Positions 25,667-46,922 of a stretch of DNA of 64,000 nucleotides are shown here, piece after piece. A program made the position numbers and the translations under genes. Under the pieces are notes generated by a model, which was not told the origin of the DNA, did no database searches, and saw only the letters and a list, made by a program, of their open reading frames with translations. The stretch is from Acidobacteriota bacterium (GTDB lineage: Bacteria > Zixibacteria > MSB-5A5 > GN15 > FEB-12), in assembly GCA_035529075.1 (NCBI GenBank), contig DATKXK010000014.1, forward strand, positions 202,264-266,263, read 5' to 3'. Within the stretch, counting starts at the first letter, position 1, and each line of letters starts with the position of its first letter.

Positions 25667-27709
25667 ATGGCAGTAAGGACCAACCAGACGCAACAGGATC
25701 AGAAGACCGTGTTTGAGCTTCAAGCCCCGTTCCCACCCCGGGGCGATCAGCAACAGGCCATCGAAGAGTTGACCTCCGGCCTTCAGGCTGACCGGCGGCA
25801 TCAAACGCTGCTGGGTGTCACCGGTTCGGGGAAAACCTTTACAATCGCCAACGTGGTTGCCAGGTATGGGCGTCCGGCCCTGGTCATTTCTCACAACAAG
25901 ACGCTCGCGGCGCAGCTTTACGGCGAGCTCAAGGCTTTTTTCCCCGGGAATGCCGTTGAGTTCTTTATCAGCTACTATGACTATTATCAGCCGGAGGCGT
26001 ACATTCCCACCACCGATACGTTTATCGAGAAAGACACCAAGATCAACGAAGATATCGACCGGTTGAGGCTGCGTGCCACCGCCTCCCTGCTGGAGCGCAG
26101 CGACGTTATAATTGTGGCTTCCGTCTCCTGCATTTACGGGATCGGCCTGCCGGAGGAGTACAAGCGTCAGATGCTGTTTCTGGAGACAGGGACACAGGTC
26201 GACCGGGACGAGACCATTCGCAGCCTGATCGACGTTCACTACAGGCGCAACGACATAGACTTTTCCCGTGGCAACTTCCGGGTGCGCGGCGACACGATAG
26301 AGTTGATCCCGGCATACCGCGAAACCGCGCTGCGGGTGGAGTTCTTCGGTGATGAGATCGAACGCATTACGGAAATCGATCCGTTGACGGGGCAAATCCT
26401 GGCTGAGCGCACGAAGGTCGCAGTCTACCCGGCCAAGCACTTCGTGACGACACGTCCGATCCTGGAGAAAGCCATCGGTCAGATCGAGGCGGAGCTGGTC
26501 GAGCAGCTGGAGATTTTCCGTTCGCAGGGCAAGCTGCTTGAAGCCCAGCGGTTGGAGATGCGTACGCGCTATGATCTGGAGATGCTCAGGGAAATCGGCT
26601 ACTGTAGCGGCATCGAAAACTACTCGCGCTACCTGACCGGCCGGGAGGCCGGGGAGAGGCCGAAGTGCCTGATCGATTTTCTGCCCGCCGACTTTATCAC
26701 CATTATTGACGAATCCCACCAGACCGTGCCCCAGTTGCGCGGCATGTATGCCGGTGACCGGACGCGCAAGGAGACGCTGGTTGCTCACGGATTCCGGCTG
26801 CCCTCGGCCCTCGACAACAGGCCGCTGTTTTTCGACGAGTTCAAGGGGCTGATGAACAAGACCATCTACGTTTCCGCCACGCCCGCCGACTACGAGCTTC
26901 AAGAGTGCGAGGGCGTGGTTGTGGAGCAGGTGATCCGCCCGACCGGTCTGCTGGACCCGCTTATCACCGTCAAGCCGCTGTCGAGCCAGGTCGACGACCT
27001 GCTCGAGCAGGTCCGCAGCCGTGCCGCCCGGGGCGAACGCGTCCTTGCCACTACCCTGACCAAACGGATGAGCGAAGACCTGACCGCCTACCTGAGCAAG
27101 ATGGGCGTTCGCGTCCGCTACCTGCATTCCGAGGTTGACACCATTGACCGGACGGAGATTATCCGTGACCTTCGTCTGAGCGAGTTTGACGTGCTGGTCG
27201 GCGTGAACCTGCTGCGGGAAGGGCTGGATTTGCCGGAGGTTTCGCTGGTGGCCATCATGGATGCCGACAAGGAGGGCTTTCTGCGCTCGGAGCGCTCGCT
27301 TATTCAGACGGCCGGACGCGCGGCACGCAACAAGAACGGGGAGGTGATTTTTTACGCCGACAAGATCACCGACTCCATGAGGAAAGCGCAGGAAGAGACC
27401 AACCGTCGCCGCACCAGACAGACGGCCTACAACCTCGAGCACAACGTCAATCCGGAGACGATTCACAAGACGCGCGAGGAAATCCTGAGGTCGACCAGCT
27501 TCGCCGACAGCAGGACGGTTGTCGACGCGAAGTACGAGAAACCGGAGTACTTTGCTATGATGTCCCACGAGGACCAGCTTGCCTTCATGCTCAAGGTCAT
27601 GAGGAGATCCGCGCAGAATCTCGAGTTTGAAACGGCTATTCTGATCCGCGACGAGATCAAGCAACTCAAGGACAAAGTCAAAAAGAACAAAACAAAACGG
27701 AGGCGGTAA
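25667..27709 (+). CDS. uvrB: excinuclease ABC subunit B
   Basis: The damage-verifying helicase-like subunit of nucleotide excision repair. The 680 residues include Walker A GVTGSGKT (50-57), the beta-hairpin region [20 protein letters not shown], the DEAD-like [18 protein letters not shown], the C-terminal helicase motifs ([23 protein letters not shown]), and the UvrA/UvrC-binding UVR motif near the end. The last residues are highly basic. uvrA and uvrC are not in the window. Confidence 0.98.
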
Positions 27710-28695: not shown

Positions 28696-28861
28696 GGCGC
28701 CGGCGCGCCGCCGACAGCCCCGAATTCTGCCTCCACCGTAACGGCATATGGCCGGTCGCGGTCATCGCGGCTCGTTTTTAGTTGAATAGCCGGTGTGCCG
28801 GGTGGTACTTTAGGTAGACAAAGCAGAGTTGTCTCAATATCAAACATTACATGGAGGTAGT

Positions 28862-29674
28862 ATGAAAGCACGGAGGATATCCGGGTTACCGCTTCTGGCA
28901 GTGGTACTTGTGGCCCTCGGCGCGGTCGGCTGCGGCACGCAGATTCCGTCCGGACACAGGGGGGTCTTCTTCAGCACTTTCGGCGACGGTACGGAGTTTG
29001 GCAAGATCTATGATGAGGGATTCAACTGGCACCTGCCGTGGAACAAGATGATGGTCTACAAGGTGCAGATCCAGGAGCGGCGGGAGGACCTCACGGTACT
29101 TTCGTCGGACGGCGCCACCATTCGCATGGAGGCATCGGTCCTGTACGTGCCGCTTGTGCTCAAGCTTGACTCTCTCCAGGTAACGATAGGGCCCAACTAC
29201 TACGACGTAGCCCTGGCGCCGAACCTCAGAGCGGTCGCGCGCGCCGTCGCGGGACGCTACAAGCCGGAGGAGATTTACTCGACAAAGCGCGAAGAGCTCC
29301 AAAACGAGATTGTCCAGGAACTGACGTTGCAGATATCAGGCAAGTTTATCGAGGTCCAGAGCGTCCTTATTCGCGACGTCCAGATTCCTGCCAAGATCTC
29401 CGAGGCCATCAATTTCAAGCTGACGGCCGACCAGGAAGCCCAGAAGATGCAGTTCACCATCGAGAAGGAACGACTCGAGGCGGAGCGAAAACGGATCGAG
29501 GCCAGGGGCGTCGCCGATTTCCAGACGATCGTGGCAGAAGGCATCACGCCATCCTACCTGAAATGGAAGGGGATCGAGGCAACTCTCAAGATTGCCGAGT
29601 CTCCGAACACCAAGGTCGTGATTATCGGCAACTCGTCCGGAGATCTGCCGATTATACTCGGCGGGGACAAGTAA
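28862..29674 (+). CDS. prohibitin/SPFH-family lipoprotein
   Basis: A 270-residue protein; ATG 28862 follows GGAGG. Instead of the usual N-terminal anchor helix it has a lipoprotein signal with lipobox GAVGC. The SPFH (band 7) domain spans about residues 28-200: VPSGHRG-like start (IPSGHRGVFF), GFNWHLPWNKMMVYKVQ, RREDLTVLSSDGATIRMEASVLY reduced to recognisable strands, and REELQNEI. A charged helical region (EKERLEAERKRIEARG) and a hydrophobic tail (VVIIGNSSGDLPIILGG) follow, as in prohibitins. The family forms ring-like scaffolds in membranes. Here lipid anchoring would place it on the periplasmic side. Confidence 0.88.
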   Translation: MKARRISGLPLLAVVLVALGAVGCGTQIPSGHRGVFFSTFGDGTEFGKIYDEGFNWHLPWNKMMVYKVQIQERREDLTVLSSDGATIRMEASVLYVPLVLKLDSLQVTIGPNYYDVALAPNLRAVARAVAGRYKPEEIYSTKREELQNEIVQELTLQISGKFIEVQSVLIRDVQIPAKISEAINFKLTADQEAQKMQFTIEKERLEAERKRIEARGVADFQTIVAEGITPSYLKWKGIEATLKIAESPNTKVVIIGNSSGDLPIILGGDK

Positions 29675-30961: not shown

Positions 30962-31165
30962 TATGGCGACAAGACAACGGGTTTACTGCGACCATTTACT
31001 GCCCTATAGTCACCGAACGGTTGATAGCGATCAGATCGGCACCAGAGTTTTGCGGCCTGCAAAGGGGCTGGCTTTTAGCGGCGAGTTGCTTTGGCAGTTC
31101 CGAGGGACTCCGGCAGACGATCCAGCGCCGGTCAACCCGTAGGTGTTCGACGTTTTGGAGGAAAG

Positions 31166-34100
31166 ATGTTGAGGAAAGGGTCAGCCAATAAAGTTCTTCT
31201 GATAGCCTCGATTTTCGTTGTCATCTCATGTTCCTGGATCACGGCCGCCGAGGGCGGCGGTTCAGACGACATCTGGGTGCCCAGCCTGACACTTCCGAAC
31301 GACACCACGCTGTACCTCTGCGGCCCCGAAGAAGTCTGTTTCGAGGTTAGCGCCAGCGACCCCGACGCTAATGACACGCTGGTCCTGACGCTGGTATCCG
31401 GCCCGATTGACATGCCCCCGGACACGTTTCCGAACGTTTTCACGACCACCGTCTGTTTCCAGGCCGACGGCGCCGGTGTCTATGAATTCCAGTTCATGGT
31501 AAAAGACCGCTTTGGGCACGAGGCCTATGGTTCAGTAACGTTTACGGTGGAGCTCGGCAATCCACCCGTTTTATCGGATCAGTCATTCGCCGCCGAACTG
31601 TGCAGTCTCAAGGAGGAGAGAGTCCTCCTCCTGAGCTATGACAACCCGCAGGGTGACTGGGTCTTCGAACTGGTTTCGGGTCCCGGTACCGTGGATCCCC
31701 TGACCGGAGCTATAACGTACCAGCCTGACACGTCCGGGGTCTTTGTGTTCGAGGTGGCTGTAGGCAACGCCTGTGGCGCCGACACGGCCACGATCACCGA
31801 CAACCTCGTGCTTAACCTGCCGCCGTACTGCGTCGGGTTCGACACCACGATTTTCCTGTGCGGGGTTGAGGAAGTCTGCTTTGACGTCCTTGCCGTCGAT
31901 CCGGAGGGTGATCCCATAACGCTTCAGCAGCTCGAGGGCCTCGGTTCGTTCACCCGGTTGAGTGACACCTCCGGTCGGACCTGCTTCTGGCCGTCCGAGG
32001 TTGACTCGGCGACTTACCGGTTTATCTACCGTGCCGCCGACAGTTGCGTGCTGGCGGCCGATGAGCTTTCCTCCGGACTGGAGGAGGCGGAGCCCCAGTG
32101 CTGCCTTGACACCGTGACTGTTATCGTGATAATCGATGATCCCCCGCAGCTGGTGTGTCCGGAAACTCAGGATTTCTGGTCCTGCGATCCGGGCACTTTC
32201 TGCTTCGACATAGAGTTGATCGACAATCATCCGGACGAGGTTACGCTGAACGTCCTGTCCGGGAACGCGACTATCGACGGCACCACGGTCTGCGTGACGG
32301 CCGACGAATCGACCGAGCTCGTCGTGGTCATCGAGGCCGTCGACGATTGCGGCGCGGACACGTGCTCCATGCCGGTCTCGGTACGGCTGAATCGCTCGCC
32401 GTACGTTACGATGGTTGATGACCGTGAGATATCCCTTTGCCAGCCGGAGATCGTTTGTCTGCCGGCGGCGGCCGACGACCCGGATTTCAATATTGCCGCG
32501 GTCTCGGTCAACTTCGGGTCATATGACGAGGCCTCGGACATTTTCTGTTTTCCCGCCGACACCTCCGGCCAGTACACCCTCGTCCTGACTGCTATTGACT
32601 CCTGTGACGCAACTGACAGTGATACGGCGATCATAACGATCAAACTCAACGAGCCGCCACTGGTCGACCTCGGCGATGACTTCACGGTTGACGAGTGCAC
32701 GACCACCGAGATCTGCATTGACGACGGCGTCGCCGACGACAACGTGAAATCGGTTACGAGCAACTTTGGCGTGTACGATCCGGAGACGGGCCGTGTCTGT
32801 TTCGTGCCCGAATCGTCGGGAGTCTACACGGTCTGGGTGACGGTGGAAGACGACTGCGGCCTGACCGCGTCGGACACCGTCGTGGTTACCGTCGAAATCG
32901 GCGGGCCGCCGGTCATCACGGACTTCTCGGACACGTCGGTCTTCCTTTGCGATGCAGAGGAAGTGTGCCTGACTCCGCAGATCACGGACCCCGACGGTGA
33001 CATAGCGACCATATCGGTCGACGAACCGTTTAGCTTCGCCGACGGCAGTGTCTGCTTCACGCCGGACACCGCCGGGCAGTATATAATTATCTTGGGGGTC
33101 ACCGACAGTTGCGGCTTCATGGGCGTGGCCACGGCGACCGTGACCGTCTCGCTGAACGAAGCCCCGGTCGCGACCCTGCCGGATGATCAGCAGTTCTCCC
33201 TCTGCCAGCCGGAGGTACTCTGCCTGCCGGCGACGGCTGACGATCCGAACTTCAATATCGCCGAGGTGTCCGTCAGTTTCGGTGAGTTCGACGACGCCAG
33301 TGATCGCGTCTGCTTTACGGCTGATACATCCGGTCTGTACACGATCATCCTGACGGCCGTGGATTCCTGCGGCTGGACTGACAGTGATACGATGCTGGTC
33401 ACGGTAACACTGAACGAGACACCGCTGATCGATCTCGGGCCTGACTTCACGGTTTCCGGCTGCGAGCCGTCGGAGGTGTGCATCGACGTTACCATAGACG
33501 ACGACAACATCGGCCTGGTCACGTCCAACGTGCCCGGGTTCGACCCCGAGTCCGGACGGCTCTGCTTCATGCCCGACACCGCCGGTGTTTACACGGTATG
33601 GGTGCGGGCCGAGGATGACTGCGGTCTTGTCGCGGCTGACACCGTCGCCGTTACGGTCGAGATCGGCAGTGCCCCGGTAATAGCGAATTTCGAGGATACG
33701 ACGGTGTATCTCTGCTTTCCGCAGGAGATATGCCTGGAGCCCCTGGTGAGTGACCCGGACGGTGACCTGGCCACGGTTACGGTCAGCGAACCCTACACGC
33801 TCAGCGAGGGGCGGATATGCTTTGTGGCCTTCAACCAGGGCACGTACGCGATTTCCCTGACGGCCACCGACAGTTGCGGCTTTTCCGTGACCGAAACCGC
33901 GATCGTGACTATACGGACCGACCAGGCTGTAGCCCTTGAATGCCCGCCGGACACGACCGTGTTCCTGTGTGAACCGGACACGCTCTGTTTCCCGGTTGAG
34001 GGCGTCCCGGACGGCGCCGAGGTGAAAGTCAGCGGGACCAACGTCTGGTGGAACGACACCACCTCTTCAGCCTGCTTCTACTCCGATTGTTGCCTGGAAA

Positions 34101-37100
34101 ACACCATTACGGTAAACGTCACCACCCCCTGCGGCACCTACAGCTGCGAGTTCACCGTCCAGGTGCAGACCAACAGCGAGCCGCTGGTCATTTTGCCGCA
34201 GGATACGGCCATGCAGTTCTGCGAGCCGACCACGGTCTGCCTGCCGGTAGGCATTACGGACGTGGACGGCAACGTCAACCCCGCGCTGGTATCGGTACTC
34301 CTGGTGGATGCCGGGGGTACTCCGGTCGGCGAGGGCGTGTTTGACGATTACAGGGACCTGATCTGCTTCGACGTCGATACGTCCGGAACCTACATCGTGT
34401 CGGTCACGGCGATTGATTCCTGCGGCCTGGCCGACAGCGACCTGATTGAGGTCGCGGTTCAGATGAACACCGCGCCGACGATTGCCGTTACGGATGTTCC
34501 AATGGAGCCCCTGTGCGAGCTGCCGGCCGAAGTATGCCTGCCGTTCACGGTGTTTGATGCCGACGATAACCTCGTCGGTGTCTCAACCACGCTCGGCAGC
34601 GTAGCGGACAATAGCGTCTGCTTTGTCCCCACCGATTTCGGCGATTATGAGATTATCCTCACCGCGACCGACGACTGCGGGCTGGTCGGGGCTGATACCG
34701 TCGTGGTTTCGCTGGTGAAGAATCCCGGCTGGGTATCCATCGACTGCCCGCCCGGCCTCGACACCCTGCTCTGTACGCCGGACTCTGTGTACATGGACGT
34801 CTCCGGCTGGTTCGCCGGGCAGGATTACGTTGTCGAAGTACTGAGCCCGTGGGCCGTGCTGGAAGACGGTTTTATCAAGTTTTACGTGGGTGAGGAAGGC
34901 TTGGTAGGCTTGCTGGAGATTGCTGCTTCCTCCGACTGCAACAGCGATACCTGCAAGGTCCCGGTCAATGCCCAGGTGATAGACTGGCTGTTGTTCACGA
35001 CTTGCCCGCCGGATACAACGGTTCTTGTCTGCGGGCCGGATACGCTGGCCTTCCCGTTCGAGACGGTCGGTGACGGCGGGCTGCAGGGCCAGGTCGTGGT
35101 TGACCCGCCGGCCTATCTCGCAGACGGCATGATCATGGTGCCGGTCCTGGCACCGGGCGCTCAGGTGGTCACGGCGCGGGCTTTGAGCGGGGTTGACGGC
35201 GAATGCAACGTGGATATCTGCACCTTCTCGGTCACCGCCGAGTTCAACGGTGCGCCGACGGTCAGCGCGCGTGATACCAGCCTTACGCTCTGTGAGCTTG
35301 AAGAGATCTGCGTGCCGTTTGAAGCCTCCGACCCGGACGACAACCTGTTGGAGGTGGTCAGCTCGCTGGGCTCCGTGACGATCAGCTATACGAGCGGCGC
35401 GAGCGGTCAGACCGGCGGAGCGACGGCGGTTGACTTCGTGCGCGAGATTGCCTCACCGCCGATCGGCGGCAAGGTCTGCTTTACGCCCGAGGCATTCGGC
35501 ACTTATGAAATTATCCTTACGGCTATAGATGAGTGCGGCGCCGAGGGCTACGATACGGTCGTTGTCTCGGTCTCCGCTGCGGCGTGGGTGGACCTTCAGG
35601 CCGACCCGCCGGTCGAGCCATTCCTCTTCTGCGACGGCCCCCAGACGATCTGCTGGCCGGTCACTGTTATCGGTGATCCGACCGGGATTGTCGTGTCGTA
35701 CGGGACCTACGATGCCGAGGACGGCATGTGTTTCGTGGCTGATTCGAGCGGCCTGTATACCATAACCATGATCGGCGTCGCCGCGTGTAACGAGGATACG
35801 CTGGACCTGACCTTCGACGTGCACATTCTCGATTCCGTCCAGGTGGTCTGCCCGGTTTCCGACACCTCGCTGTTCTTCTGCGATCTGCCGCGTTCAATCT
35901 CCCTGCCGCTGACCATTCTCGGCGACGTGGAGAACATCACCGCCCTGCCGGAGGGGACTTCCGCCGACGGTAACTCCGTGCTCATTCCGGTCGACGCCGA
36001 GGGGGAAATCACGGTTGTGGTTATTGCTGAAGGCTACTGTAACGTCGACAGTTGCACGTTTGTGGTCAATGTAGATGCCAACGAGCCGCCCGTCCTGGTG
36101 GCGGGTAATGACACCTTGGCGGTGCTGTGCGAACTGGGGGAGGTGTGCATCGGGTTCAACCTGTTCGATCCCGACGACAACCTCGTCGAGGTTCGAACGA
36201 CGCTCGGCCTGATCGACGATACGATAATCTGCTTTACGCCGGAGGCTTTCGGCGACTACGAAATGGTCATTACGGCGACGGATTCGTGCGGCGCGGTGGC
36301 TGAAGATACCGTTTTGATTGCGGTGAGCGAGGGAACGTACGCCGCGATAGATTGCCCGCCCGCGCCCATGTCGTTGGCCATCGATCTTCCCGGCTCTCTT
36401 ATGATACCTATTGCGATTACGCCGGTTGACGCCGAGGTCACGGTTCTGCCGTTCGGCCGCTATGATTTCGGCACCGGTGAGTTGATTGCCTATATCGAGG
36501 AACCCGGCACGTACACCTTTACGATCATTGCGGCGGCCGAATGCAGCAGTGATACGTGTGTCGTGGAGGTCGAGGTAATCCAGTACATCCCGCCGCTGGT
36601 CGTCTGCGAGGGAAGCGTTGATACAGTGCTTTGCCTGGTCACCCCCGAGACCCTGTGTATGCCGGTCACGGTTTCGGGCACCGCCATTTCCGTGGATGTC
36701 CTGCCCGTGGGTGAATACGCCGACGGTTACGTCTGCCTCGACGTTGACACCGCGGGCACGTACGAGCTGCAGATAATCGCCGCCAACGAGGCGCAGGCCG
36801 ATACATGTTATTCGTCGTTAACGGTGACACTCGGCCGTCCGCCCGTCATTGACATGCCCGACAGCCTCACTTTCGCGCTCTGCGATCCGGCCGAGGTCTG
36901 CGTGCCGGCTGTGTTCGAGGACACTGATTTTGACATCGCGGAGTATTCCGTCAGCTTCGGCACCTATGACGACGTCGACGAGCAAATCTGCTTTGACGCC
37001 GAGGCAACCGGCGTGTATACGATAATCGTGAGCGTATCGGATTCCTGCGGTAACGTGGCCATCGATACGGCCGTGGTTACCGTGAACGTGAACGCCGCTC

Positions 37101-40100
37101 CCACCGTCAGCGCAGAGCCGGGGACGTACTTCATCTGCGAAGAGCCTCAGGTCTGCGTTGCCGTTGACGTTGTTGACGAGAACATCGCCACCGTCGTCAC
37201 CAGCATGGGCGATTACGATGCTCAGGCGGGCCAGGTCTGCTTTATCCCGGATACGAGCGGAGTCTACACGCTGATTGTGCAGGTGACCGATTCGTGCGGC
37301 GCCGTGGCGGCGGATACGGCTGACCTGACGATCCAGGTCAACCAGGTGCCGGTGATCAGCGGCTTGACGGATACGTCGATTTACATATGCTCGCCGCAGG
37401 AGATCTGCCTGAGCACCGAAGTCGTGGATGCCGACGGCAATCTGGTGTCGGTGACCTTTGACGGCCCGGGGACTTACGAGGACGGCCTGATATGCTTTAT
37501 CCCGTTCTCGATGGGCCAGTACCAGTTTACTCTGACCGCCGAGGATGTCTGCGGAGCGATTACCGTGGTGACGGCGGTAGTTACCATCGAAACCGATCAA
37601 AGCCTGTCCCTGAAGTGCCCCGCCGACACGACCGTGTTCCTGTGCGAGGCCGATACACTCTGCTTCCCGGTTGACGGTATCCCGGAGGGAGCCGAGGTAA
37701 CCGTCAACGGAACCAACGTCTGGTGGGATGAGGCCACCTCTTCGGCCTGCTTCTACTCCGATTGTTGCCTGGAAAACACGATTACGGTAAACGTTGCCAC
37801 CGCCTGTGGCACCTACAGTTGCGACTTTACCGTTACGGTGCAGACCAACAGCCGGCCGCTGGTGATCCTGCCACAGGACAAGGCGGTTGTTCAGTGCCAG
37901 TTCGAGGAAATCTGCCTGCCGGTGGGGATTACGGACGTGGACAACAACGTCCTGCTGGTGACCGCCGATGGGGGAGTGTTTGACGACTACCGTGACCTGG
38001 TCTGCTTCACCCCGGACACCTCCGGCCTGTATAAAATCACCGTGACCGCCACCGACTCCTGCGGCCTGTCGGACAGTGATGAAATCCTCGTTGACGTCAC
38101 GCTGAACCGGCCGCCGGTAATCACGTATGAGTCGCCCGGGGCGGTAACGGTATGTGAGTTTGAGGAAATCTGCCTGCCGGTCGATATCGATGATCCCGAT
38201 GGCAACCTGGATCAGGTCAACGTCGTTGGCGGTCGCTACGACGAGGCCGGCGGTACGGTTTGCTTCACGCCGCAGGATCTCGGGCAGGCCTGCCTGTCGA
38301 TCATCGCCACCGATACCTGCGGGCTGAAAGACTCCATCATGGTCTGCGTCGAGGTGGCCGCGGGTGATTCGGTGGCAATTGATTGTCCCGTGGATCCGTT
38401 CCCCTCCGTTCAGCTATGCGCGGCGGACCAGGTGTGCGTCCCGCTCGCAGTCACCGGAGAGAGCTATACGGTCTCAACCAGCTTCGGCGGCTGGTCCGAC
38501 GGTACGCTGTGTTTCCAGGCCGACACGTCGGGACTTTATGAGATTACGGTGGTCGCCGATGCGGAGTGCAACCGCGACACTTGCGTTGTTGCCATACCCG
38601 TAGATATTCCCGGGCCCGTGACGATTACCTGTCCGCCGGACGCGAACGAGCCCCTGTGCGACCCGGATACCGTATGCTACCCCTTTGAGGCGTCCTCTTC
38701 GGCTCTGACGGTGACGGCCACGAGCCCTGCCTACATCAGCGGCGGTGAGGTCTGTGTCCCGATTCTGGAGCCGGGTGTGCTTGAAATCACCATGATCGCC
38801 TCAGGCGACTGCGGAGCCGATACCTGTTCGTTCACGGTAAGCGCTGAGTTTAACGAGCCGCCGGTGATCGTGGCCGGTCCCGATACTTCACTGACGGAAT
38901 GCGGCCTGGCTGAAATCTGTATCGATCTTCAGGTTACCGACGCGGATGACAATATCGAATCGATAACGGCCTCCCTGGGCAACGTCTCGGGTGACAGTGC
39001 CGTCTGCTTCACGCCGCCGGATTTCGGCACCTACGAGATTGTCGTAGAGGTTTTCGATGCCTGCGGCGAAAAGGACGCCGACACCGTCACTGTGACGGTC
39101 AGCGAAGGAGAGGCAGCGTCCATATTCTGTCCTGACGACGTGCAGCACCATTCCATCTGCGGGCCCGGCAACATATGCGTGATTGCCCCGATCTCGCCGC
39201 CTGATGCCAAGGTTACGGTCAGTCCGAGTGGTTATTACGATCCGGGTACCGGTACGATATGCATCTACGCCGACACCGGCGGGAGCTATGACGTGAAGGT
39301 CATCGCCGAGGCCCAGTGCGTCAGCGATACGTGTGAGTTTACTCTGAAAGTGAACATGGCCGAGCCGCCGGCCGTGACGTGTCCCGAGACAGTTGATACG
39401 CTCTTATGCCTGGCCGAGCCGGAAACACTGTGTGTCCCGGTAGAAATCACCGGCACCATCACCAATGTCACTGTCAGCCCGATTGGAAACTATGCGGCCG
39501 GGTTCGTGTGCGTCCCGGTGACCGGGCCCGGCGACTATGCCATTGAGATAATCGCGACCGGGAATTGCGGAGCTGACACCTGCCTGATGCAAATCGACGT
39601 TCAGGCGGATCAGCCGCCCGCGCTCACGTTGCCGCCGACCTTGACATTTGAGCGCTGCCCGGGAGACACTGATCCTATCTGTATCAACGGCGTCTTCGCT
39701 ATGGATGCGGAATCCGAGGTGACCGTCAGTAAGGTATGCGGTATCGGGGGCTTCGCTCAGGCCGATCCTGGCAGCGGCCAGCTGTGCTTCGTCCCTGACA
39801 CTTTCGGAACCTATACCTTCTGTTTCGAGGCCGATGACGGCTGCAACACGGTCGAGGATACACTCCTTGTCGATGTCGTGCTCAAGGATGACTGCGACGT
39901 CTGCCTGCGCGTGACTATCGACGGCGGCGAGTGCACGCCGGTCGGATTGCGCAAGACGGTCGCCATGAACTTTGAGAGCAACGAAGAGGTTGGAGGATTC
40001 TCAATTCTGATGGGCTATGATGCCTCGATCTTGAGTTTCCAGAATGCCACCATCGATGGTGGCGTTATTGAGGATTGGGAGTACTTTACATGGAACCTGG

Positions 40101-41398
40101 GAGGCGGCGCCTGCGGTACCGCCTGTCCTTCCGGAATCGTCCGCTTCGTGGGTATCGCGGACCAGAACAACGGCGCGGCTCATCCGCCCGATTCGGCGTA
40201 CGGCCCCAGCGGTCCGTCGGTCTTCATTGAGTACCAGGTCGCCAACGATCAGAATATCGGTGGCTTCTTCATCCCGATCAACTTCGTCTGGTACGCCTGT
40301 GCCGACAACTCGTTCTCCGACCCATCCGGCGGTGTCCTGTTCATTGATCGCCGCATTTATACCTACGAGGGTGTAATCTTGTGGGATGAGACGGACGACG
40401 TTCAGTTCCCCGAAAGCGCGCGACCGTTCGGCCTCGGCGCCCCCGACGATTGTATTAGTGGAGGAGACAAGTCGGAGCCTCTCCGCTGCATAGAGTACGT
40501 TAACGGCGGCGTCTGTATCACCCACCCTGATTCCATTGATGACCGTGGCGATATCAATCTGAACGGCCTGGCGTATGAAATCTCCGACGTCGTAACGTTC
40601 ACCAACTACTTCATCAAAGGCCTGAGCGCGTTTACGGTCAACATCGCCGGACAGATTGCGGCTACTGACGTGAACGCCGACGGCCTGACGTTGACGGTGG
40701 CCGACCTGTCGTATCTCATCCGAGTGGTGATCGGCGACGCCGACCCGATTCCGCGACCCGTGCCGTACAGCGAGGAGGTTTTGGTGGCGACCGCCATCGG
40801 CTCCGATCTCGTCCGAATATCGACGGAGGCTCCCGGCGACATAGGCGCGATGTACCTGGTCTATGACCTCGACCCCGGAATCCGCGTCGACGACGTGCGG
40901 CTGTCCGCTGCGGCTCAGGAGCTCGACCTGATGTACGGCGTGACCGACGGGCAACTCAAACTGCTCGTGTTTGATATCGGTCCGGGACGAATAGCGCCCG
41001 GCAACAACAGCATTATCGAGATACCGTATTCAGGGGACGGCTCACTGCGGCTGGTCTACTCTGAGATCAGCGACTACTACGGACGTCCCTATCCGACTGT
41101 AAACCTGAAGGCTACGCTGCCGGAGAGCTACTCGCTGGGCCAGAACTATCCCAATCCGTTTAACCCGTCCACGACGATTCGCTTCACGCTGCCGCAGCCG
41201 ACCGCGTGGGGCCTGAGAATTTATAACGTGGCCGGCGGGCTGGTCCGGGAGTTTAACGGGTCGGACGGTGCCGGCACCGTCGAGGTGGTATGGGACGGCC
41301 GGAATCAGGACGATGGTACGGTGGCCTCGGGCATCTACCTGTATCGTCTCGAGGCGGGCGGTTTCAGCGCCTCACGTAAAATGATCTTGCTGAAGTAA
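31166..41398 (+). CDS. giant Cys-rich repeat protein with T9SS sorting domain
   Basis: A 3410-residue secreted protein. ATG 31166 follows a consensus GGAGG. Visible parts: a Sec signal peptide (1 to about 29); about 33 Ig/cadherin-like modules of about 86 residues (about 37-2907); a cohesin-like beta domain (about 2910-3065, VAMNFESNEEVGGFSILMGY); two dockerin-like calcium-loop repeats (about 3126-3192, DINLNG and DVNADG); and a type A T9SS C-terminal sorting domain (about 3318-3410, LGQNYPNPFNPSTTIRFTLP, ending ASRKMILLK). Most modules carry four cysteines: LCxPEEVC near the start, VCF in the middle and DSCG near the end, suggesting two disulfides each. The likely fate is export through T9SS to the cell surface or medium; adhesion, surface-layer or scaffold functions are all possible. 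No enzymatic domain is visible. A convergent-gene terminator follows. Confidence 0.93.
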   Translation: MLRKGSANKVLLIASIFVVISCSWITAAEGGGSDDIWVPSLTLPNDTTLYLCGPEEVCFEVSASDPDANDTLVLTLVSGPIDMPPDTFPNVFTTTVCFQADGAGVYEFQFMVKDRFGHEAYGSVTFTVELGNPPVLSDQSFAAELCSLKEERVLLLSYDNPQGDWVFELVSGPGTVDPLTGAITYQPDTSGVFVFEVAVGNACGADTATITDNLVLNLPPYCVGFDTTIFLCGVEEVCFDVLAVDPEGDPITLQQLEGLGSFTRLSDTSGRTCFWPSEVDSATYRFIYRAADSCVLAADELSSGLEEAEPQCCLDTVTVIVIIDDPPQLVCPETQDFWSCDPGTFCFDIELIDNHPDEVTLNVLSGNATIDGTTVCVTADESTELVVVIEAVDDCGADTCSMPVSVRLNRSPYVTMVDDREISLCQPEIVCLPAAADDPDFNIAAVSVNFGSYDEASDIFCFPADTSGQYTLVLTAIDSCDATDSDTAIITIKLNEPPLVDLGDDFTVDECTTTEICIDDGVADDNVKSVTSNFGVYDPETGRVCFVPESSGVYTVWVTVEDDCGLTASDTVVVTVEIGGPPVITDFSDTSVFLCDAEEVCLTPQITDPDGDIATISVDEPFSFADGSVCFTPDTAGQYIIILGVTDSCGFMGVATATVTVSLNEAPVATLPDDQQFSLCQPEVLCLPATADDPNFNIAEVSVSFGEFDDASDRVCFTADTSGLYTIILTAVDSCGWTDSDTMLVTVTLNETPLIDLGPDFTVSGCEPSEVCIDVTIDDDNIGLVTSNVPGFDPESGRLCFMPDTAGVYTVWVRAEDDCGLVAADTVAVTVEIGSAPVIANFEDTTVYLCFPQEICLEPLVSDPDGDLATVTVSEPYTLSEGRICFVAFNQGTYAISLTATDSCGFSVTETAIVTIRTDQAVALECPPDTTVFLCEPDTLCFPVEGVPDGAEVKVSGTNVWWNDTTSSACFYSDCCLENTITVNVTTPCGTYSCEFTVQVQTNSEPLVILPQDTAMQFCEPTTVCLPVGITDVDGNVNPALVSVLLVDAGGTPVGEGVFDDYRDLICFDVDTSGTYIVSVTAIDSCGLADSDLIEVAVQMNTAPTIAVTDVPMEPLCELPAEVCLPFTVFDADDNLVGVSTTLGSVADNSVCFVPTDFGDYEIILTATDDCGLVGADTVVVSLVKNPGWVSIDCPPGLDTLLCTPDSVYMDVSGWFAGQDYVVEVLSPWAVLEDGFIKFYVGEEGLVGLLEIAASSDCNSDTCKVPVNAQVIDWLLFTTCPPDTTVLVCGPDTLAFPFETVGDGGLQGQVVVDPPAYLADGMIMVPVLAPGAQVVTARALSGVDGECNVDICTFSVTAEFNGAPTVSARDTSLTLCELEEICVPFEASDPDDNLLEVVSSLGSVTISYTSGASGQTGGATAVDFVREIASPPIGGKVCFTPEAFGTYEIILTAIDECGAEGYDTVVVSVSAAAWVDLQADPPVEPFLFCDGPQTICWPVTVIGDPTGIVVSYGTYDAEDGMCFVADSSGLYTITMIGVAACNEDTLDLTFDVHILDSVQVVCPVSDTSLFFCDLPRSISLPLTILGDVENITALPEGTSADGNSVLIPVDAEGEITVVVIAEGYCNVDSCTFVVNVDANEPPVLVAGNDTLAVLCELGEVCIGFNLFDPDDNLVEVRTTLGLIDDTIICFTPEAFGDYEMVITATDSCGAVAEDTVLIAVSEGTYAAIDCPPAPMSLAIDLPGSLMIPIAITPVDAEVTVLPFGRYDFGTGELIAYIEEPGTYTFTIIAAAECSSDTCVVEVEVIQYIPPLVVCEGSVDTVLCLVTPETLCMPVTVSGTAISVDVLPVGEYADGYVCLDVDTAGTYELQIIAANEAQADTCYSSLTVTLGRPPVIDMPDSLTFALCDPAEVCVPAVFEDTDFDIAEYSVSFGTYDDVDEQICFDAEATGVYTIIVSVSDSCGNVAIDTAVVTVNVNAAPTVSAEPGTYFICEEPQVCVAVDVVDENIATVVTSMGDYDAQAGQVCFIPDTSGVYTLIVQVTDSCGAVAADTADLTIQVNQVPVISGLTDTSIYICSPQEICLSTEVVDADGNLVSVTFDGPGTYEDGLICFIPFSMGQYQFTLTAEDVCGAITVVTAVVTIETDQSLSLKCPADTTVFLCEADTLCFPVDGIPEGAEVTVNGTNVWWDEATSSACFYSDCCLENTITVNVATACGTYSCDFTVTVQTNSRPLVILPQDKAVVQCQFEEICLPVGITDVDNNVLLVTADGGVFDDYRDLVCFTPDTSGLYKITVTATDSCGLSDSDEILVDVTLNRPPVITYESPGAVTVCEFEEICLPVDIDDPDGNLDQVNVVGGRYDEAGGTVCFTPQDLGQACLSIIATDTCGLKDSIMVCVEVAAGDSVAIDCPVDPFPSVQLCAADQVCVPLAVTGESYTVSTSFGGWSDGTLCFQADTSGLYEITVVADAECNRDTCVVAIPVDIPGPVTITCPPDANEPLCDPDTVCYPFEASSSALTVTATSPAYISGGEVCVPILEPGVLEITMIASGDCGADTCSFTVSAEFNEPPVIVAGPDTSLTECGLAEICIDLQVTDADDNIESITASLGNVSGDSAVCFTPPDFGTYEIVVEVFDACGEKDADTVTVTVSEGEAASIFCPDDVQHHSICGPGNICVIAPISPPDAKVTVSPSGYYDPGTGTICIYADTGGSYDVKVIAEAQCVSDTCEFTLKVNMAEPPAVTCPETVDTLLCLAEPETLCVPVEITGTITNVTVSPIGNYAAGFVCVPVTGPGDYAIEIIATGNCGADTCLMQIDVQADQPPALTLPPTLTFERCPGDTDPICINGVFAMDAESEVTVSKVCGIGGFAQADPGSGQLCFVPDTFGTYTFCFEADDGCNTVEDTLLVDVVLKDDCDVCLRVTIDGGECTPVGLRKTVAMNFESNEEVGGFSILMGYDASILSFQNATIDGGVIEDWEYFTWNLGGGACGTACPSGIVRFVGIADQNNGAAHPPDSAYGPSGPSVFIEYQVANDQNIGGFFIPINFVWYACADNSFSDPSGGVLFIDRRIYTYEGVILWDETDDVQFPESARPFGLGAPDDCISGGDKSEPLRCIEYVNGGVCITHPDSIDDRGDINLNGLAYEISDVVTFTNYFIKGLSAFTVNIAGQIAATDVNADGLTLTVADLSYLIRVVIGDADPIPRPVPYSEEVLVATAIGSDLVRISTEAPGDIGAMYLVYDLDPGIRVDDVRLSAAAQELDLMYGVTDGQLKLLVFDIGPGRIAPGNNSIIEIPYSGDGSLRLVYSEISDYYGRPYPTVNLKATLPESYSLGQNYPNPFNPSTTIRFTLPQPTAWGLRIYNVAGGLVREFNGSDGAGTVEVVWDGRNQDDGTVASGIYLYRLEAGGFSASRKMILLK
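33157..34462 (+). repeat. long internal duplication, copy 1 (modules A-B-C-D-E)
   Basis: Five consecutive modules that match, in order, those at 36832-38107, offset by 3675 bases (1225 codons). Module D includes a rare TNVWW followed by SACFYSDCCLENTITVNV in both copies. Bases 34070-34104 are identical to 37745-37779. Copy 1 has about 12 extra residues in module E. Confidence 0.85.
36832..38107 (+). repeat. long internal duplication, copy 2 (modules A-B-C-D-E)
   Basis: Partner of 33157-34462. The A-B-C part is more diverged than module D, which is nearly identical at protein level and has long identical DNA runs, so module D may have been homogenised more recently or be under stronger constraint. 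Confidence 0.85.
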
Positions 41399-41471: not shown

Positions 41472-41942
41472 TTACTTGTGGTAACCGGTGCGGTGCAGAA
41501 TCGTAAAGGCTCTGTAAAGCTGTTCCAGGAGAATCACACGGACCAGATGGTGGGGGAAAGTCAGGGGGGACAGCGACAGCACCGCGTCGGCCTCGCCCAC
41601 CAGCCGGTCGGCCAGTCCGTGGGGGCCGCCGATGAGGAATTCGACGCGTCCGCCGCTGGTGGTTTGCAGCCGCTCGATCAGCCGTGCGAAAGCTTCTGAA
41701 TCGCAGGTGGGACCCCGGTCGCTCAACGCGATGCCGTAGCCGCCCTTCCTCCGGCGGACCAGCAGATCGGATTCGCGGACGCGAATCTCATCGGGGGAGA
41801 GGGCGCTGGAGAATTTCGGCGACGGTATGACGGTCAGCGATATGCGGGCGAAGCGGGAGAGCAGCTTGCGGTAGTGTTCGCTCCCCTGCGTGATCCACGG
41901 CTCCTTGTCCCTGCCCAGACTAATAACGTGGACTTCAAGCAA
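41472..41942 (-). CDS. rlmH: 23S rRNA pseudouridine-1915 N3-methyltransferase
   Basis: A SPOUT methyltransferase of 156 residues acting on helix 69 of 23S rRNA. Family blocks are FLIGGPHGL (SAM-binding knot), SLSPLTFPHHLVRVILLEQL and the C-terminus RAFTILHRTGYHK. The start is TTG 41942, which overlaps the end of yjbQ by eight bases with AAGG upstream. It is the last gene of the eight-gene minus-strand unit. Confidence 0.97.
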   Translation of the reverse strand: MLEVHVISLGRDKEPWITQGSEHYRKLLSRFARISLTVIPSPKFSSALSPDEIRVRESDLLVRRRKGGYGIALSDRGPTCDSEAFARLIERLQTTSGGRVEFLIGGPHGLADRLVGEADAVLSLSPLTFPHHLVRVILLEQLYRAFTILHRTGYHK

Positions 41943-42336
41943 GGGCGACTACCTTGACAAGGAGGCGGCGGTTTCGCGGCCCGTCGAACTCGCAGAACTG
42001 AATGCCCTGCCACTGGCCCAGGACGAGCCGCTTGTTCTCGAAAAATACCTGCTGCGAGAACCCAAGAAGTGAGGCCTTGATATGGGCGTCGGAATTGCCC
42101 TCGGCGTGGCGGTAGCCGTCCTCGCGCGGTATTTCCTTACCCAGTTTGTACAGGATGTCGCGCTTGACGTCGGGATCGGCATTCTCGTTGATGGTGATCC
42201 CGGCCGTCGTATGCGGGACAAAGCAGTAGACGATGCCCGCTAAGTGCCCGCTGGCCGAGACGGCCCTCTGCACGAGGTCAGTGACGTCGAGGATTTCCTC
42301 ACGCTGACCCGTTCTGACCGGCAGTTCCTGGATCAT
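41935..42336 (-). CDS. yjbQ: YjbQ/UPF0047 family protein
   Basis: A 133-residue protein of the YjbQ family. Its conserved blocks are VPHTTAGITINENADPDV and HAEGNSDAHIKASLLG, which contain the His/Glu residues of the presumed active site; the family has been linked to weak thiamin-phosphate synthase activity, and its true role is not settled. Its ATG overlaps the ftsY stop (ATGA), implying coupled translation. Confidence 0.95.
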   Translation of the reverse strand: MIQELPVRTGQREEILDVTDLVQRAVSASGHLAGIVYCFVPHTTAGITINENADPDVKRDILYKLGKEIPREDGYRHAEGNSDAHIKASLLGFSQQVFFENKRLVLGQWQGIQFCEFDGPRNRRLLVKVVALA

Positions 42337-43247
42337 GTGAACAGGGCCTCGGCAAACTGTTTTGAGTCGAATCGCTGCAAATCGTCGATAGCTTCGCCGA
42401 TGCCGATGAAATCGACCTGCACGCCAAGCTCCTCGGCGACTGCGATGACCACGCCTCCTTTGGCGGTGCCATCCAGCTTGGTTATGATCAGTCCGTCACA
42501 GCCGACCGCCTCGGTGAACACTCCCACCTGTGTCAGGGCGTTCTGGCCGGTGTTGCCGTCAATGATAAGCTTGTTGTAAATCGCCGCTTCCGGTGCCGCC
42601 TTCTGTATGACCCGCCGGATCTTCCTCAACTCCTCCATGAGGTTGCTCTTGGTGTGGAGACGCCCGGCCGTGTCGATCAGCAGGAGGTCGGCGCCTCTGG
42701 CTCGTGCGGCGCTGGCCGCATCGAACGCCACCGCCCCGGGATCCGTACCTTCCTGGGCTCGTACCAGTTCCACGCGGCTCCGCTCGGCCCAAATTGCCAC
42801 CTGGTCGATCGCCGCCGCCCGGAACGTATCGCAGGCCCCTATAATCACCTTCTTCCCCTCCGAGGCGAATCGCGTGGCCAGCTTGCCGATGGTGGTCGTC
42901 TTGCCGACCCCGTTCACTCCGGTGATAAGCCACACGACGGGTTTCGGGTCGCTCTCGTGGAACAGCGCGCCGTTTTCCCGGGACAGGATAGCGGCTATAT
43001 TCTCCTTGAGCAGCGCCACGGCGCTCTCGCCGTCGGTCAGGCGGCGCTCGCGGGCGGATTGCCGTACTTGCTCGATCAGTTGCCGGGTTGTCCTGACGCC
43101 GACGTCAGCTTCGATCAGAATCTCCTCGATGTCCTCCAGCAGGTCATCGTCGAGCCGGCGCCGGCTGACGACCCGGGAGATCTTCCCGAAAATGTTCTCT
43201 TTCGTTCTGGAAAGCGATTCTCTGAGCTTTTCGAAACCGCTGCGCAT
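42333..43247 (-). CDS. ftsY: signal recognition particle receptor FtsY
   Basis: The SRP receptor GTPase that brings ribosomes to the membrane. The 304 residues are a short FtsY without the long acidic A domain. The N domain is residues 1-95; the G domain has [31 protein letters not shown] and [10 protein letters not shown]. The basic start ([13 protein letters not shown]) may help membrane contact. It begins 12 bases after smc and overlaps yjbQ by four. Confidence 0.98.
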
Positions 43248-43259
43248 AAGAAACCGGTA

Positions 43260-46200
43260 TTACGTGTCCTCGTCGCGAGTGAGAGATATCTCCGGGCCTA
43301 TCCGCTCCTGGATACTCTCAGGGAGTTGCTCCGGATACGCGTCGTTGGCGGTTTCCACGCTCACGACCGCGTCCTCGTCACCGTCGTCGGAGCTGAACCT
43401 GACCGCCACCAGTTTGGAGATCCCGGGTTCTTCCATCGTGACCCCGTACAGGTTGTTCGAGGCCGCCATGGTGATTTTGTTGTGCGTAATGGTGGCGAAT
43501 TGCGTCTGGTGGGAGAAGTTGCGGATGATCTTGAGAAACCGGTGGCAGTTGGCGTCGTCAAGCGGCGCGTCGATCTCGTCAAGAATGCAGAAGGGCGAGG
43601 GTTTCACGAGATAGAGCGAAAACAGCAGGGCGATGGCCGTCAGAGCGCGCTCACCGCCCGACATCATTGTTATCGGGAGCAGATTCTTGCCGCGCGGCCG
43701 GGCCGTGATTTCGATGTCGGATTCAAGCGGATCATCCGGTTCGATCAGCCTGATGCCGGCTTCGCCGCCGCTGAACAGCTCGGCAAACAACTCCCGGAAA
43801 TTCTTCTGCACTTTCTCCAGCGTGTCGTTGAATAGTCGGCGCGCCGTCTGGTTGATTTTGGCGATGGTCGAGTTCAGGTCACCCTTGGCCGTCTCGAGAT
43901 CACTCAGCTGCTCACGGAGGAATTTCTCGCGCTCACTGGCCTCGCGATATTCCTCGATAGCCAGCAGGTTGACGGCTCCGAATTTCTTCAGCCGGTCTCT
44001 CAGTTCACCCAGGTGCTGCGCGGCCCCCTCGTCGGCCAGACCGTCATCCGGTTTGGCGACCGCGGCGGTGTGGATGTCGACCTCGTAGTCTTCACGAATC
44101 CTCTCGCTGATGGAGCGGATCTCAGCATCGATCGTGTTCAGCCTGATGTCGAGTTCGTGCAGCCTTTCGCCGAAGACGTCTCGTTCGTCGCGCAGGCGCT
44201 TGATGTCCTTTTCGTGGCCCGACACGCGCCGAAGTAGCTCAGCCTGAGTTTCGTGGAATTTCTCCTGCTGCTCCGATTTCTCCTCGCGGAACCGAAAGGC
44301 CGCTTCGAGATCACGTTCCAGCGTGCCGGTGCGCTCCTGAGCCTGGCGGATATCGGTGCGGGCCTTCTCTATTTCCGTCGTATTCGTGCTCAGGCCGGTT
44401 TCGATGCTTGACGTAAGCTCATTGAGGTGGGTTATGCGGCTGGTGGTCTGTTCCAGGCGGCTTCGTGTTTCGATCACGGCCACTTGATGTCTGGACACGC
44501 GGTCGACCGCGGCCGCGGCGTCGCGTTCAAGGTCTTCCAGCCTGTTGCCGGCAGCCGTGATATCGCCGATGAGATGGTCCTTCTGGTCCGCGAGCTTCGA
44601 CGAATCCAGTTCGAGGCTGCACTGGCGGCTTTGTATGTCTTCGAGCTTGACCGAAAGCGCCTGCTTCTCCCGGTTCAGGCGCTCGAATTCGGACGTAAGG
44701 CTGCGGTGAGCAAAGTCGTTCTCATTGACGTCCTTCTGAACGGACTCGATCTCTTCGCTCAACTCCTGAAGCTGGGAACCGACTTCGTTGGATTCCGCTC
44801 TCGCCGCGGCCAGGCGGGCCAGCGTTCTGCCCTTCTCATCACTGATACCCTTCAGGCGCTCGCTCAACTGCGCAACGATCTCCTCCTGCTGCTGCACTTT
44901 CTCGCGGCGTCTGAACAACGGGAAACGGTCGTCTGAACCGCCCGAGATGACGTTCTTCCGGTAGACAACGCCGTCGGTGGAGACGGCCGTGAAGCCATAG
45001 GGGAGGTGTTCGAGAATTTCGGAAGGGGACGTCTCGGAACCGAACACGATGGTGCGGGAAAGCACGGCGTCTTTAAGAGATCGCATGCCCTCCTCGGTGG
45101 AGACGAAGCTGTCAAGCCAGCCGACGACCCCCGGCAGGTCAAGCTGCGGGCGTTTCACGGCAGGAGTAATGGTCCCGGTGTCGGGGACCAGGATGCCGAC
45201 TCTCCCCTTAGAATTGTCTTTGAGGAAGCGGATAATATCCTCGGCGGTGGCTCGATCGCGGCAGACGATGAACCTGGCCATCTCGCCCAGGGCCGCCTCG
45301 GTGGCCGTCTCCATGCCTTCGGCCGGGACAAACAGTTCCGCCACCGTGCCGGCGATCCCCGGCCAGCGATCCTTCTCGTCCATGGCCGACACGACGCCCG
45401 CTTCGTACCCTTCATGCTGCAGCATCATGTCTTCGAGCAGCTTGCGGCGTGCCTGGGCGGCCTCGATGGAGGCATTCAGGTTGGCCATGTCCAGCGACAG
45501 CGCCTCCCCGGCTTCGGCCAGAGTCTCCATCTCCTCAGTCAGGGCGGTCCGACGCTCATCCACCTGTTTCTTCCGGCCGATCTGGTCGTCCAGAGCGTGA
45601 CGACGTTCATGCAGCCGGGTCACAAGCTCGCTTTGCTCCTGTTCTCTGGCCGAAATCTGGGATTCGATCTCGGCTATGCGGTCGCTCAGTTCCCGTTGTT
45701 GCTGCTTGAGGCTGCGCTCCTCGGTTATTTCCGATGACAGCCTGCCCTCCAGTTCAACGAGCCTTCGGTTCTCGCCCTCTCGCGCCGACCTTGCCTCCAG
45801 CAGGCGCCGGTCGATCTCGGCCTGCTCGCTCTCCGCCTGCGCCAACCCCGTCGACTTCTCTTCAAGCGTTTCGGCCAGGCCGTCGGCTTCCTGCCGGGCA
45901 GCCTTGATCTGATCGGCGAGAGACTCCAGCCGTTTGCTCAGGGCTTCGTATTCCGATTCGTTCTTCTCGATGAGCCGCTCCGCGTTCGTCTTCTTTTCGC
46001 CGAGGATGGAGATCTCCCGCTCGAACGAGTGAGCCGACTCGGTGATAGTATAGATCTCGCGGCCGATTTCATTAAGCCGCCGTTCGATATCGACCTGTTC
46101 CTTGCGCTCGGCTTCCAATTGTGCCGCGTGCTGATCCAGGCTGGTCTCACACTGGACCTTCTGCCTGCTCAGGTCCTCGACTTGCCTCCCCAGCGTGCGC

Positions 46201-46922
46201 TTCTCAGCCTTCAGGGCGCCGACTCGCGAGGCGCCCAGGTACAACTCCCACTGCTTTATTTCATCCACAACCTTCTGGTACCGTTCGGCCTTCTTGTGCT
46301 GTCGGTACAGAGAGTTGGCCCGCGTCTTGACCTCGGCGTAGATGTCCTTCAGGCGCAGGAAATCGTGTTCGGTAGCCTCGAGTTTTCTGAGGGCGGCCCG
46401 GCGGCGCAGTTTGTACTTGGTGATGCCGGCCGCCTCCTCGAACAGGTAACGCCGTTCCTCGGCCCGGTCCGAGATGACGGCTTCGATCATATCCGGCTGG
46501 ATCACCGAGTAGGAATGGGTGCCGACTCCCGTGTCCAGGAAAAGGTCCGTGATGTCCCGCAGCCGGCAGGGGACCTTGTTCAGCAGGTACTCCGACTCGC
46601 CGCTGCGGTATAACCGGCGCGTCACCTGCAGTTCGTTATACTCGGTGGCGAGAAGTCCGCGGTCGTTGACTACCGTCAACGTGACTTCGGCCATCCCCAG
46701 CGGTTTGGCACTGCTGGTGCCGTTGAAGATCACTTCCTCCATTTTGCCGCCGCGGAGCAGGGAAGGCTTCTGTTCACCGAGCACCCAGCGCAAGGCGTCG
46801 AGGATATTTGTCTTGCCGCATCCGTTCGGCCCGACTATGGCCGTCAGACCGTCGGCAAACGTTAACGATGTCTTGATTGCAAAGGACTTGAAGCCGAGTA
46901 TTTCCAGTCGCTTGAGATACAC
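43260..46922 (-). CDS. smc: chromosome segregation protein SMC
   Basis: A condensin ATPase that organises and segregates the chromosome. The 1220 residues show the N-terminal Walker A (GPNGCGKT, 31-38), two long coiled-coil arms (about 170-490 and 680-1020), a hinge with Gly-rich turns (about 510-660, [19 protein letters not shown]), and the C-terminal head with signature [16 protein letters not shown] and Walker [15 protein letters not shown]. The last 60 residues are acidic. scpA and scpB are not in the window. It is followed at once by ftsY, an arrangement common in other phyla. Confidence 0.98.

Follow-up and report, generated by a model that had tools for sequence, protein, structure and literature searches.

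Long surface fibres made of Ig-type domains are common in bacteria, and the linkers between their modules are generally regarded as flexible or stiffened by calcium. Giant Ig fibres exported by the T9SS are already known, and giant surface proteins that follow this route include SprB of the gliding Bacteroidota and GhpA, the grappling-hook protein of Aureispira. Covalent ties between successive repeats have been described in a different setting, namely the Sel1-like repeats of Helicobacter HcpB and HcpC, in which disulfides tether each repeat to the next (PMC3851747). These Hcp proteins were the only close concept that we found in the open-licence literature, where no Ig array stapled bead by bead came up, although such an absence is weak evidence. 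Here, we describe an array protein encoded in a 64,000-nucleotide stretch of DNA (the window). We consider it likely that this is a giant T9SS-exported surface protein of the Zixiibacteriota that forms a single-chain Ig/PKD-like rod, in which disulfides from cysteine C1 of module i to cysteine C4 of module i+1 staple successive modules. Covariation of the cysteines alone points to such a bond between modules throughout the array, and the exceptions at its ends agree with this reading.

Architecture and locus of the giant protein

The open reading frame at 31166–41398 on the forward strand encodes exactly 3410 residues. A ribosome-binding site, GGAGG (31157–31161, forward strand), lies immediately upstream of the ATG at 31166, and the frame is already open from a TTG at 31091. 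By inspection, residues 1 to about 28 (31166–31249) resemble the signal peptide of the original prediction, with a basic start and a hydrophobic core followed by TAA-EGG. The protein contains 164 cysteines (4.8% of residues), while histidine accounts for 0.2%. A module HMM, together with cysteine assignment and AlphaFold modelling of modules 22–24, defines 33 contiguous Ig/PKD-like modules from residue 37 to 2904 (31274–39877) at a pitch of about 87 residues, which bears out both the module count of about 33 and the cysteine motifs proposed originally. The array is followed by a cohesin-fold domain, a dockerin-like region, a domain unmatched in Pfam and a T9SS type A tail. Dozens of independent genomes encode proteins with this architecture, which rules out an artefact. 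In the window, neither Rfam nor a tRNA scan produced any match.

The commonest module carries the pattern C-x5-C ... VCF ... DSCG, a second type has two extra cysteines (xxCPPD ... CxxDTC), and a few modules lack the middle two. In Pfam, the modules match PKD_4 with 74.8 bits (cut-off 27) and Big_9 with 63.6 bits (cut-off 23.6); these are general matches, and no well-described adhesin family is matched in full. The classical PKD motif WDFGDG is absent from the module consensus of 85 three-module sequences. Modules 22–24 (36815–37585, forward strand), modelled by AlphaFold with 85 sequences, are predicted with high confidence (pLDDT 97.0, pTM 0.79) to be all-β and to fold as Ig-like β-sandwiches, and their fold matches include cadherins, titin Ig tandems and the RTX and SraP adhesins. 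The Ig- or cadherin-like character first suggested for the modules agrees with both the Pfam and the AlphaFold results. An additional vicinal Cys-Cys is present in two modules, within CFYSDCCLEN (34073–34093 and 37748–37768, residues 970–976 and 2195–2201), and both modules belong to a larger block duplication within the array (about 48% identity).

The source genome comprises 3.04 Mb in 21 contigs and is rated 100% complete. When named genomes were scanned, the conserved C-terminal region matched almost only Candidatus Zixiibacteriota, which assigns the window to this phylum, and 601 residues of the array gave no matches. Arrays of this kind occur in all 41 genomes of the first search for relatives, and a three-module profile at E ≤ 1e-15 matches 94 of 110 genomes of the phylum. 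Among 388 near relatives, the same profile matches 83 of 97 phylum members as against six of 291 genomes outside it (G278, G214 and four others), where the matches are weak (best 2.5e-33) and could represent either Ig repeats of a generic kind or related arrays outside the phylum. An apparent absence in genome G059 reflects a contig break; its locus L201 has the C-terminal end. Four loci labelled as Calditrichaeota and Ignavibacterium (L095 and L107/L123/L134) carry array proteins of the Zixiibacteriota type, in L095 and L107 with the Zixiibacteriota neighbours as well, and these are probably misnamed MAGs. The source genome itself encodes a second array protein of 3088 residues on another contig (G000:C5; L040:4148-13411), whose N-terminal region differs (NYNLVDSSYFQGVP...), whose second module contains an insert of 206 residues and whose last module has no C1; paralogues of this type are found in other genomes.

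The chromosomal setting of the giant gene is well conserved. Upstream on the forward strand lie uvrB (25667–27709) and an SPFH/Band 7 gene (28829–29674), both of which recur wherever a locus reaches them. Downstream on the reverse strand there is a convergent gene for an rlmH-like SPOUT methyltransferase (41472–41942), followed by UPF0047 (41935–42336), ftsY (42333–43247) and smc (43260–46922), and these three usually lie beyond the rlmH-like gene where the locus extends far enough. The rlmH-like gene flanks the array gene in 17 loci of one set and in 44 of 80 loci of another, the two sets overlapping partly (some contigs are identical). In 16 of the 17 loci the gap between the two convergent genes is 62–128 bp; the exception is L044, whose giant frame (L044:6738-15206) is truncated, stopping before the cohesin region and 1849 bp from rlmH through either a frameshift in the genome or an assembly error. 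Giant repeat adhesins are seldom found at so constant a locus. All four genomes of genus g40 are without the array, and three of their loci (L196, L198 and L199) span the interval, with uvrB, the SPFH gene and rlmH kept and other genes in between; in two of the three, these encode other proteins with T9SS-like tails. Elsewhere in the window, a 1421-residue protein of the BcrAD/BadFG CoA-enzyme activase type is encoded at 49668–53933.

Cysteine pairs within and between modules

To follow the cysteines, labelled C0 to C5, 1709 modules from 94 Zixiibacteriota open reading frames were aligned to one HMM, and the presence or absence of each position was scored within modules and across lags of −3 to +4. 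C1 and the C4 of the following module are both present at 1509 joints and both missing at 19, with two discordant joints, one in each direction (phi 0.949; Fisher p 1.7e-41). At every other C1–C4 lag tested |phi| was at most 0.034, and within modules, where each of the two is about 95% conserved, it was 0.02. In 2000 within-protein shuffles the number of discordant joints averaged 38 and never fell below 30. The pattern is the same in two separate sets of sequences: counted as both, only one, only the other and neither, the joints number 791/1/1/10 in the first set (35 frames) and 718/0/0/9 in the second (59 frames), which has less than 10% of its sampled 30-residue words in common with the first. 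The discordant joint in L058 is a C4 shifted by one residue, and that in L064 is a real exception. The 19 concordant losses reduce to about seven independent events, since thirteen of them are a single inherited joint and six are further cases. C4 is seldom missing from non-first modules (20 of 1530, about 1.3%), so that concordance in seven of eight events lies far beyond chance.

Two further pairs are seen within modules. C2 and C3 are scored as 1370/0/7/288 (seven discordant), and C0 and C5, at 449/76/3/1017, behave largely as one unit. The covariation indicates that C2–C3 is an intramodule pair and that C1 and C4 link adjacent modules, and we read the covarying pairs as disulfides. As C1 and C4 go together across each joint and not within a module, neighbouring modules are most likely disulfide-stapled. 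The original prediction of two disulfides inside each module, taken as C1–C4 and C2–C3, is accordingly rejected for C1–C4 and retained for C2–C3. It had also proposed a cross-linkable surface fibre; the long surface fibre stands, yet its cross-links would more plausibly already be in place along the fibre itself. Applied to the window protein, these rules give 28 C2–C3 pairs, 12 C0–C5 pairs and 31 of the 32 possible inter-module pairs, and the sole canonical module cysteine left without a partner is C1 of the last module.

The predicted structure fits this assignment. In the AlphaFold model, C1 lies at the end of strand A, C2 in strand B, C3 in strand E and C4 in the F–G turn. The end of strand A and the F–G turn are found at opposite ends of an Ig sandwich, and C1 of one module would for this reason meet C4 of the following one. 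A further expectation concerns the ends of the array, as a bond from C1(i) to C4(i+1) leaves the first module with no need of a C4 and the last with no need of a C1. First modules that have C1 without C4 are indeed the rule, with more than 20 in the first set and 15 of 19 in the second, and in both sets the last modules of the paralogue arrays keep C4 and are without C1.

We think that the C1–C4 bonds would form within one chain. They might instead connect parallel, in-register chains to give a disulfide-linked multimeric cable, as a homo-oligomer with interchain bonds in register would produce identical covariation and the neck of the T9SS grappling-hook protein GhpA (9flp) is among the fold matches of modules 22–24, at rank 48. 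This arrangement seems improbable, however, considering that the modelled Ig topology already faces both cysteines across the junction in one chain, so that a partner chain would not be needed.

We give similarly little credence to a scheme in which the cysteines are reduced or bind metal, with each pair bridging two modules via a metal ion. It would suit the source genome, in which DsbA, DsbB, VKOR and DsbA-like Thioredoxin_4 were not found by searches that were positive in control genomes, and also the seemingly largely sediment and groundwater habitats of the carriers, as judged from record titles. Nevertheless, each cysteine pair is inherited in isolation, the protein has very little histidine and no third cysteine is there to complete a site, and three different pairs follow the same two-at-a-time rule. 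Finally, an ordinary giant Ig/PKD adhesin made of independent beads, each with its own C1–C4 and C2–C3 disulfides, would account for the PKD/Big matches, the predicted Ig folds and the C2–C3 pair but is very improbable, being strongly disfavoured by the phi values (0.02 within modules against 0.95 between neighbours), by the cysteine content of first modules and of the last modules of paralogue arrays and by the predicted placement of C1 and C4 at opposite module ends.

The C-terminal region and a joint without the cysteine pair

The domain that follows the array (about residues 2905–3119; 39878–40522, forward strand) is predicted to have a cohesin fold, as had been proposed originally. The AlphaFold model of the C-terminal region has a pLDDT of 82.8, and its top 50 PDB fold matches in Foldseek are all cohesins or cohesin-like modules (best E 2.3e-7, TMt 0.78); a sequence search of the PDB, unlike the fold search, gave no match. 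Pfam Cohesin has no match in the window protein itself at E ≤ 1 and matches weakly in five of 14 orthologues (best 2.5e-4). This domain contains most of the C-terminal cysteines, with an odd set of seven that is invariant in 14 orthologues. Since their number is odd, C1 of the last module, which the window protein retains, may pair into the C-terminal domain.

The dockerin-like region (about residues 3122–3194; 40529–40747, forward strand) is conserved more strongly than any other part of the giant protein. It contains two Asp/Asn loops, DINLNGLAYEISD and DVNADGLTLTVAD, of the DxNxNG and DxNxDG types, each followed by a helix, and Pfam Dockerin matches weakly in four of 14 orthologues (best 7e-4), which makes the dockerin-like reading of the original prediction probable. 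Beyond a domain without a Pfam match (about residues 3200–3320; 40763–41125, forward strand), the protein ends in a T9SS type A sorting domain (residues 3328–3407; 41147–41386, forward strand), which matches TIGR04183 at 39.5 bits against a cut-off of 23, as well as Por_Secre_tail/FlgD_ig, and upholds the sorting domain expected there. The same genome encodes SprA (SprA_N, PF14349, 1.8e-24, in a frame of 2011 residues) and 42 proteins with T9SS tails.

The only joint of the window protein that lacks the inter-module cysteine pair lies between modules 20 and 21 (residues 1717–1888; 36314–36829, forward strand), where both cysteines are absent, and it is followed by 13 modules. Among the orthologues in which this joint lacks the pair, exactly 13 modules follow it in 12 of 13 and 12 follow it in L044, while the count of preceding modules differs greatly, reaching 24. 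The other same-locus orthologues have no unstapled joint among those that could be scored. Judged by these counts, the apparently unstapled joint has a conserved position in this genome's clade, 13 modules away from the anchored end, and it could act as a hinge.

A proposed stapled rod compared with known systems

We propose the following mechanism. The T9SS would export the giant protein, whose C-terminal end would anchor the rod to the outer membrane. A C2–C3 disulfide would join strands B and E within most modules and a C0–C5 disulfide would join strands A and G within some, while the bond between C1, at the end of strand A in module i, and C4, in the F–G turn of module i+1, would act as the staple. 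Stapling would make one covalently continuous and presumably stiff rod out of a string of beads, about 0.1 μm long if each module contributes 3.5–4 nm, which may serve as a spacer, as a means of attachment or as an envelope fibre. Bond formation may occur via another oxidase or by oxidation outside the cell; VKOR is found in two of the 110 genomes of the phylum.

More speculatively, the system could be a phylum-wide, positionally fixed surface organelle, i.e., a covalently stapled Ig cable in which one joint is deliberately left without a staple at a set distance from the cell, and its makers would be bacteria lacking the known disulfide-forming enzymes. This wider proposal is tentative and, on balance, doubtful. 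If true, it would imply an oxidation route for T9SS cargo that is not yet known, or a stiffness that responds to the surrounding redox state. If confirmed, the stapled rod would itself show how nature can build a nanorod that is locked covalently, and it would open a way to study the cell surface of a phylum for which metagenomes are almost the only source. It would also leave to be explained how a single exported protein acquires about 70 disulfides without DsbA, DsbB or VKOR, and the genus with other genes at the array locus offers a natural comparison.

The individual features of the window protein are found in several known families. Its tandem Ig-like β-sandwich modules are shared with PKD/Big_9 and cadherin-like arrays (the ColH PKD domains, SraP CDHL, RTX adhesins and protocadherins), and the Asp-rich loops at its module ends are also found in calcium-linked cadherin arrays. 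However, the module consensus differs from classical PKD in the missing WDFGDG, and where those arrays are held together by calcium or packing only, neighbours here would be joined by cysteine pairs. The A–G cystine of the type II modules (CP... ...C-F-V-V) presumably resembles that of the hyalin repeat (HYR), and HYR had no match at E ≤ 1 in the Pfam scan of the giant protein.

The C-terminal domain shares its predicted fold with cellulosomal cohesins, and the dockerin-like region carries two Asp/Asn loops. Unlike in the cellulosome, the two are adjacent on one Cys-rich chain, and the neighbourhood of the giant gene has no cellulosome context. The open-licence literature yielded no report of cohesin/dockerin or T9SS in Zixibacteria, which is a weak absence.

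With HcpB and HcpC, the window protein has the tethering of successive repeats in common, but these are short α-helical superhelices related to it in neither sequence nor fold, whereas here the tether would run along a 33-module, all-β Ig rod. In overall design there is a parallel with SprB and GhpA, which combine a signal peptide, a giant repeat region and a T9SS C-terminal domain; the window protein has the latter two behind a signal-like N-terminus, and the neck of GhpA is a distant fold match of the modules. The window protein is set apart from both in that no clear sequence relation to them was found, in its repeated inter-module cysteine pairs and in its fixed chromosomal locus across the phylum.
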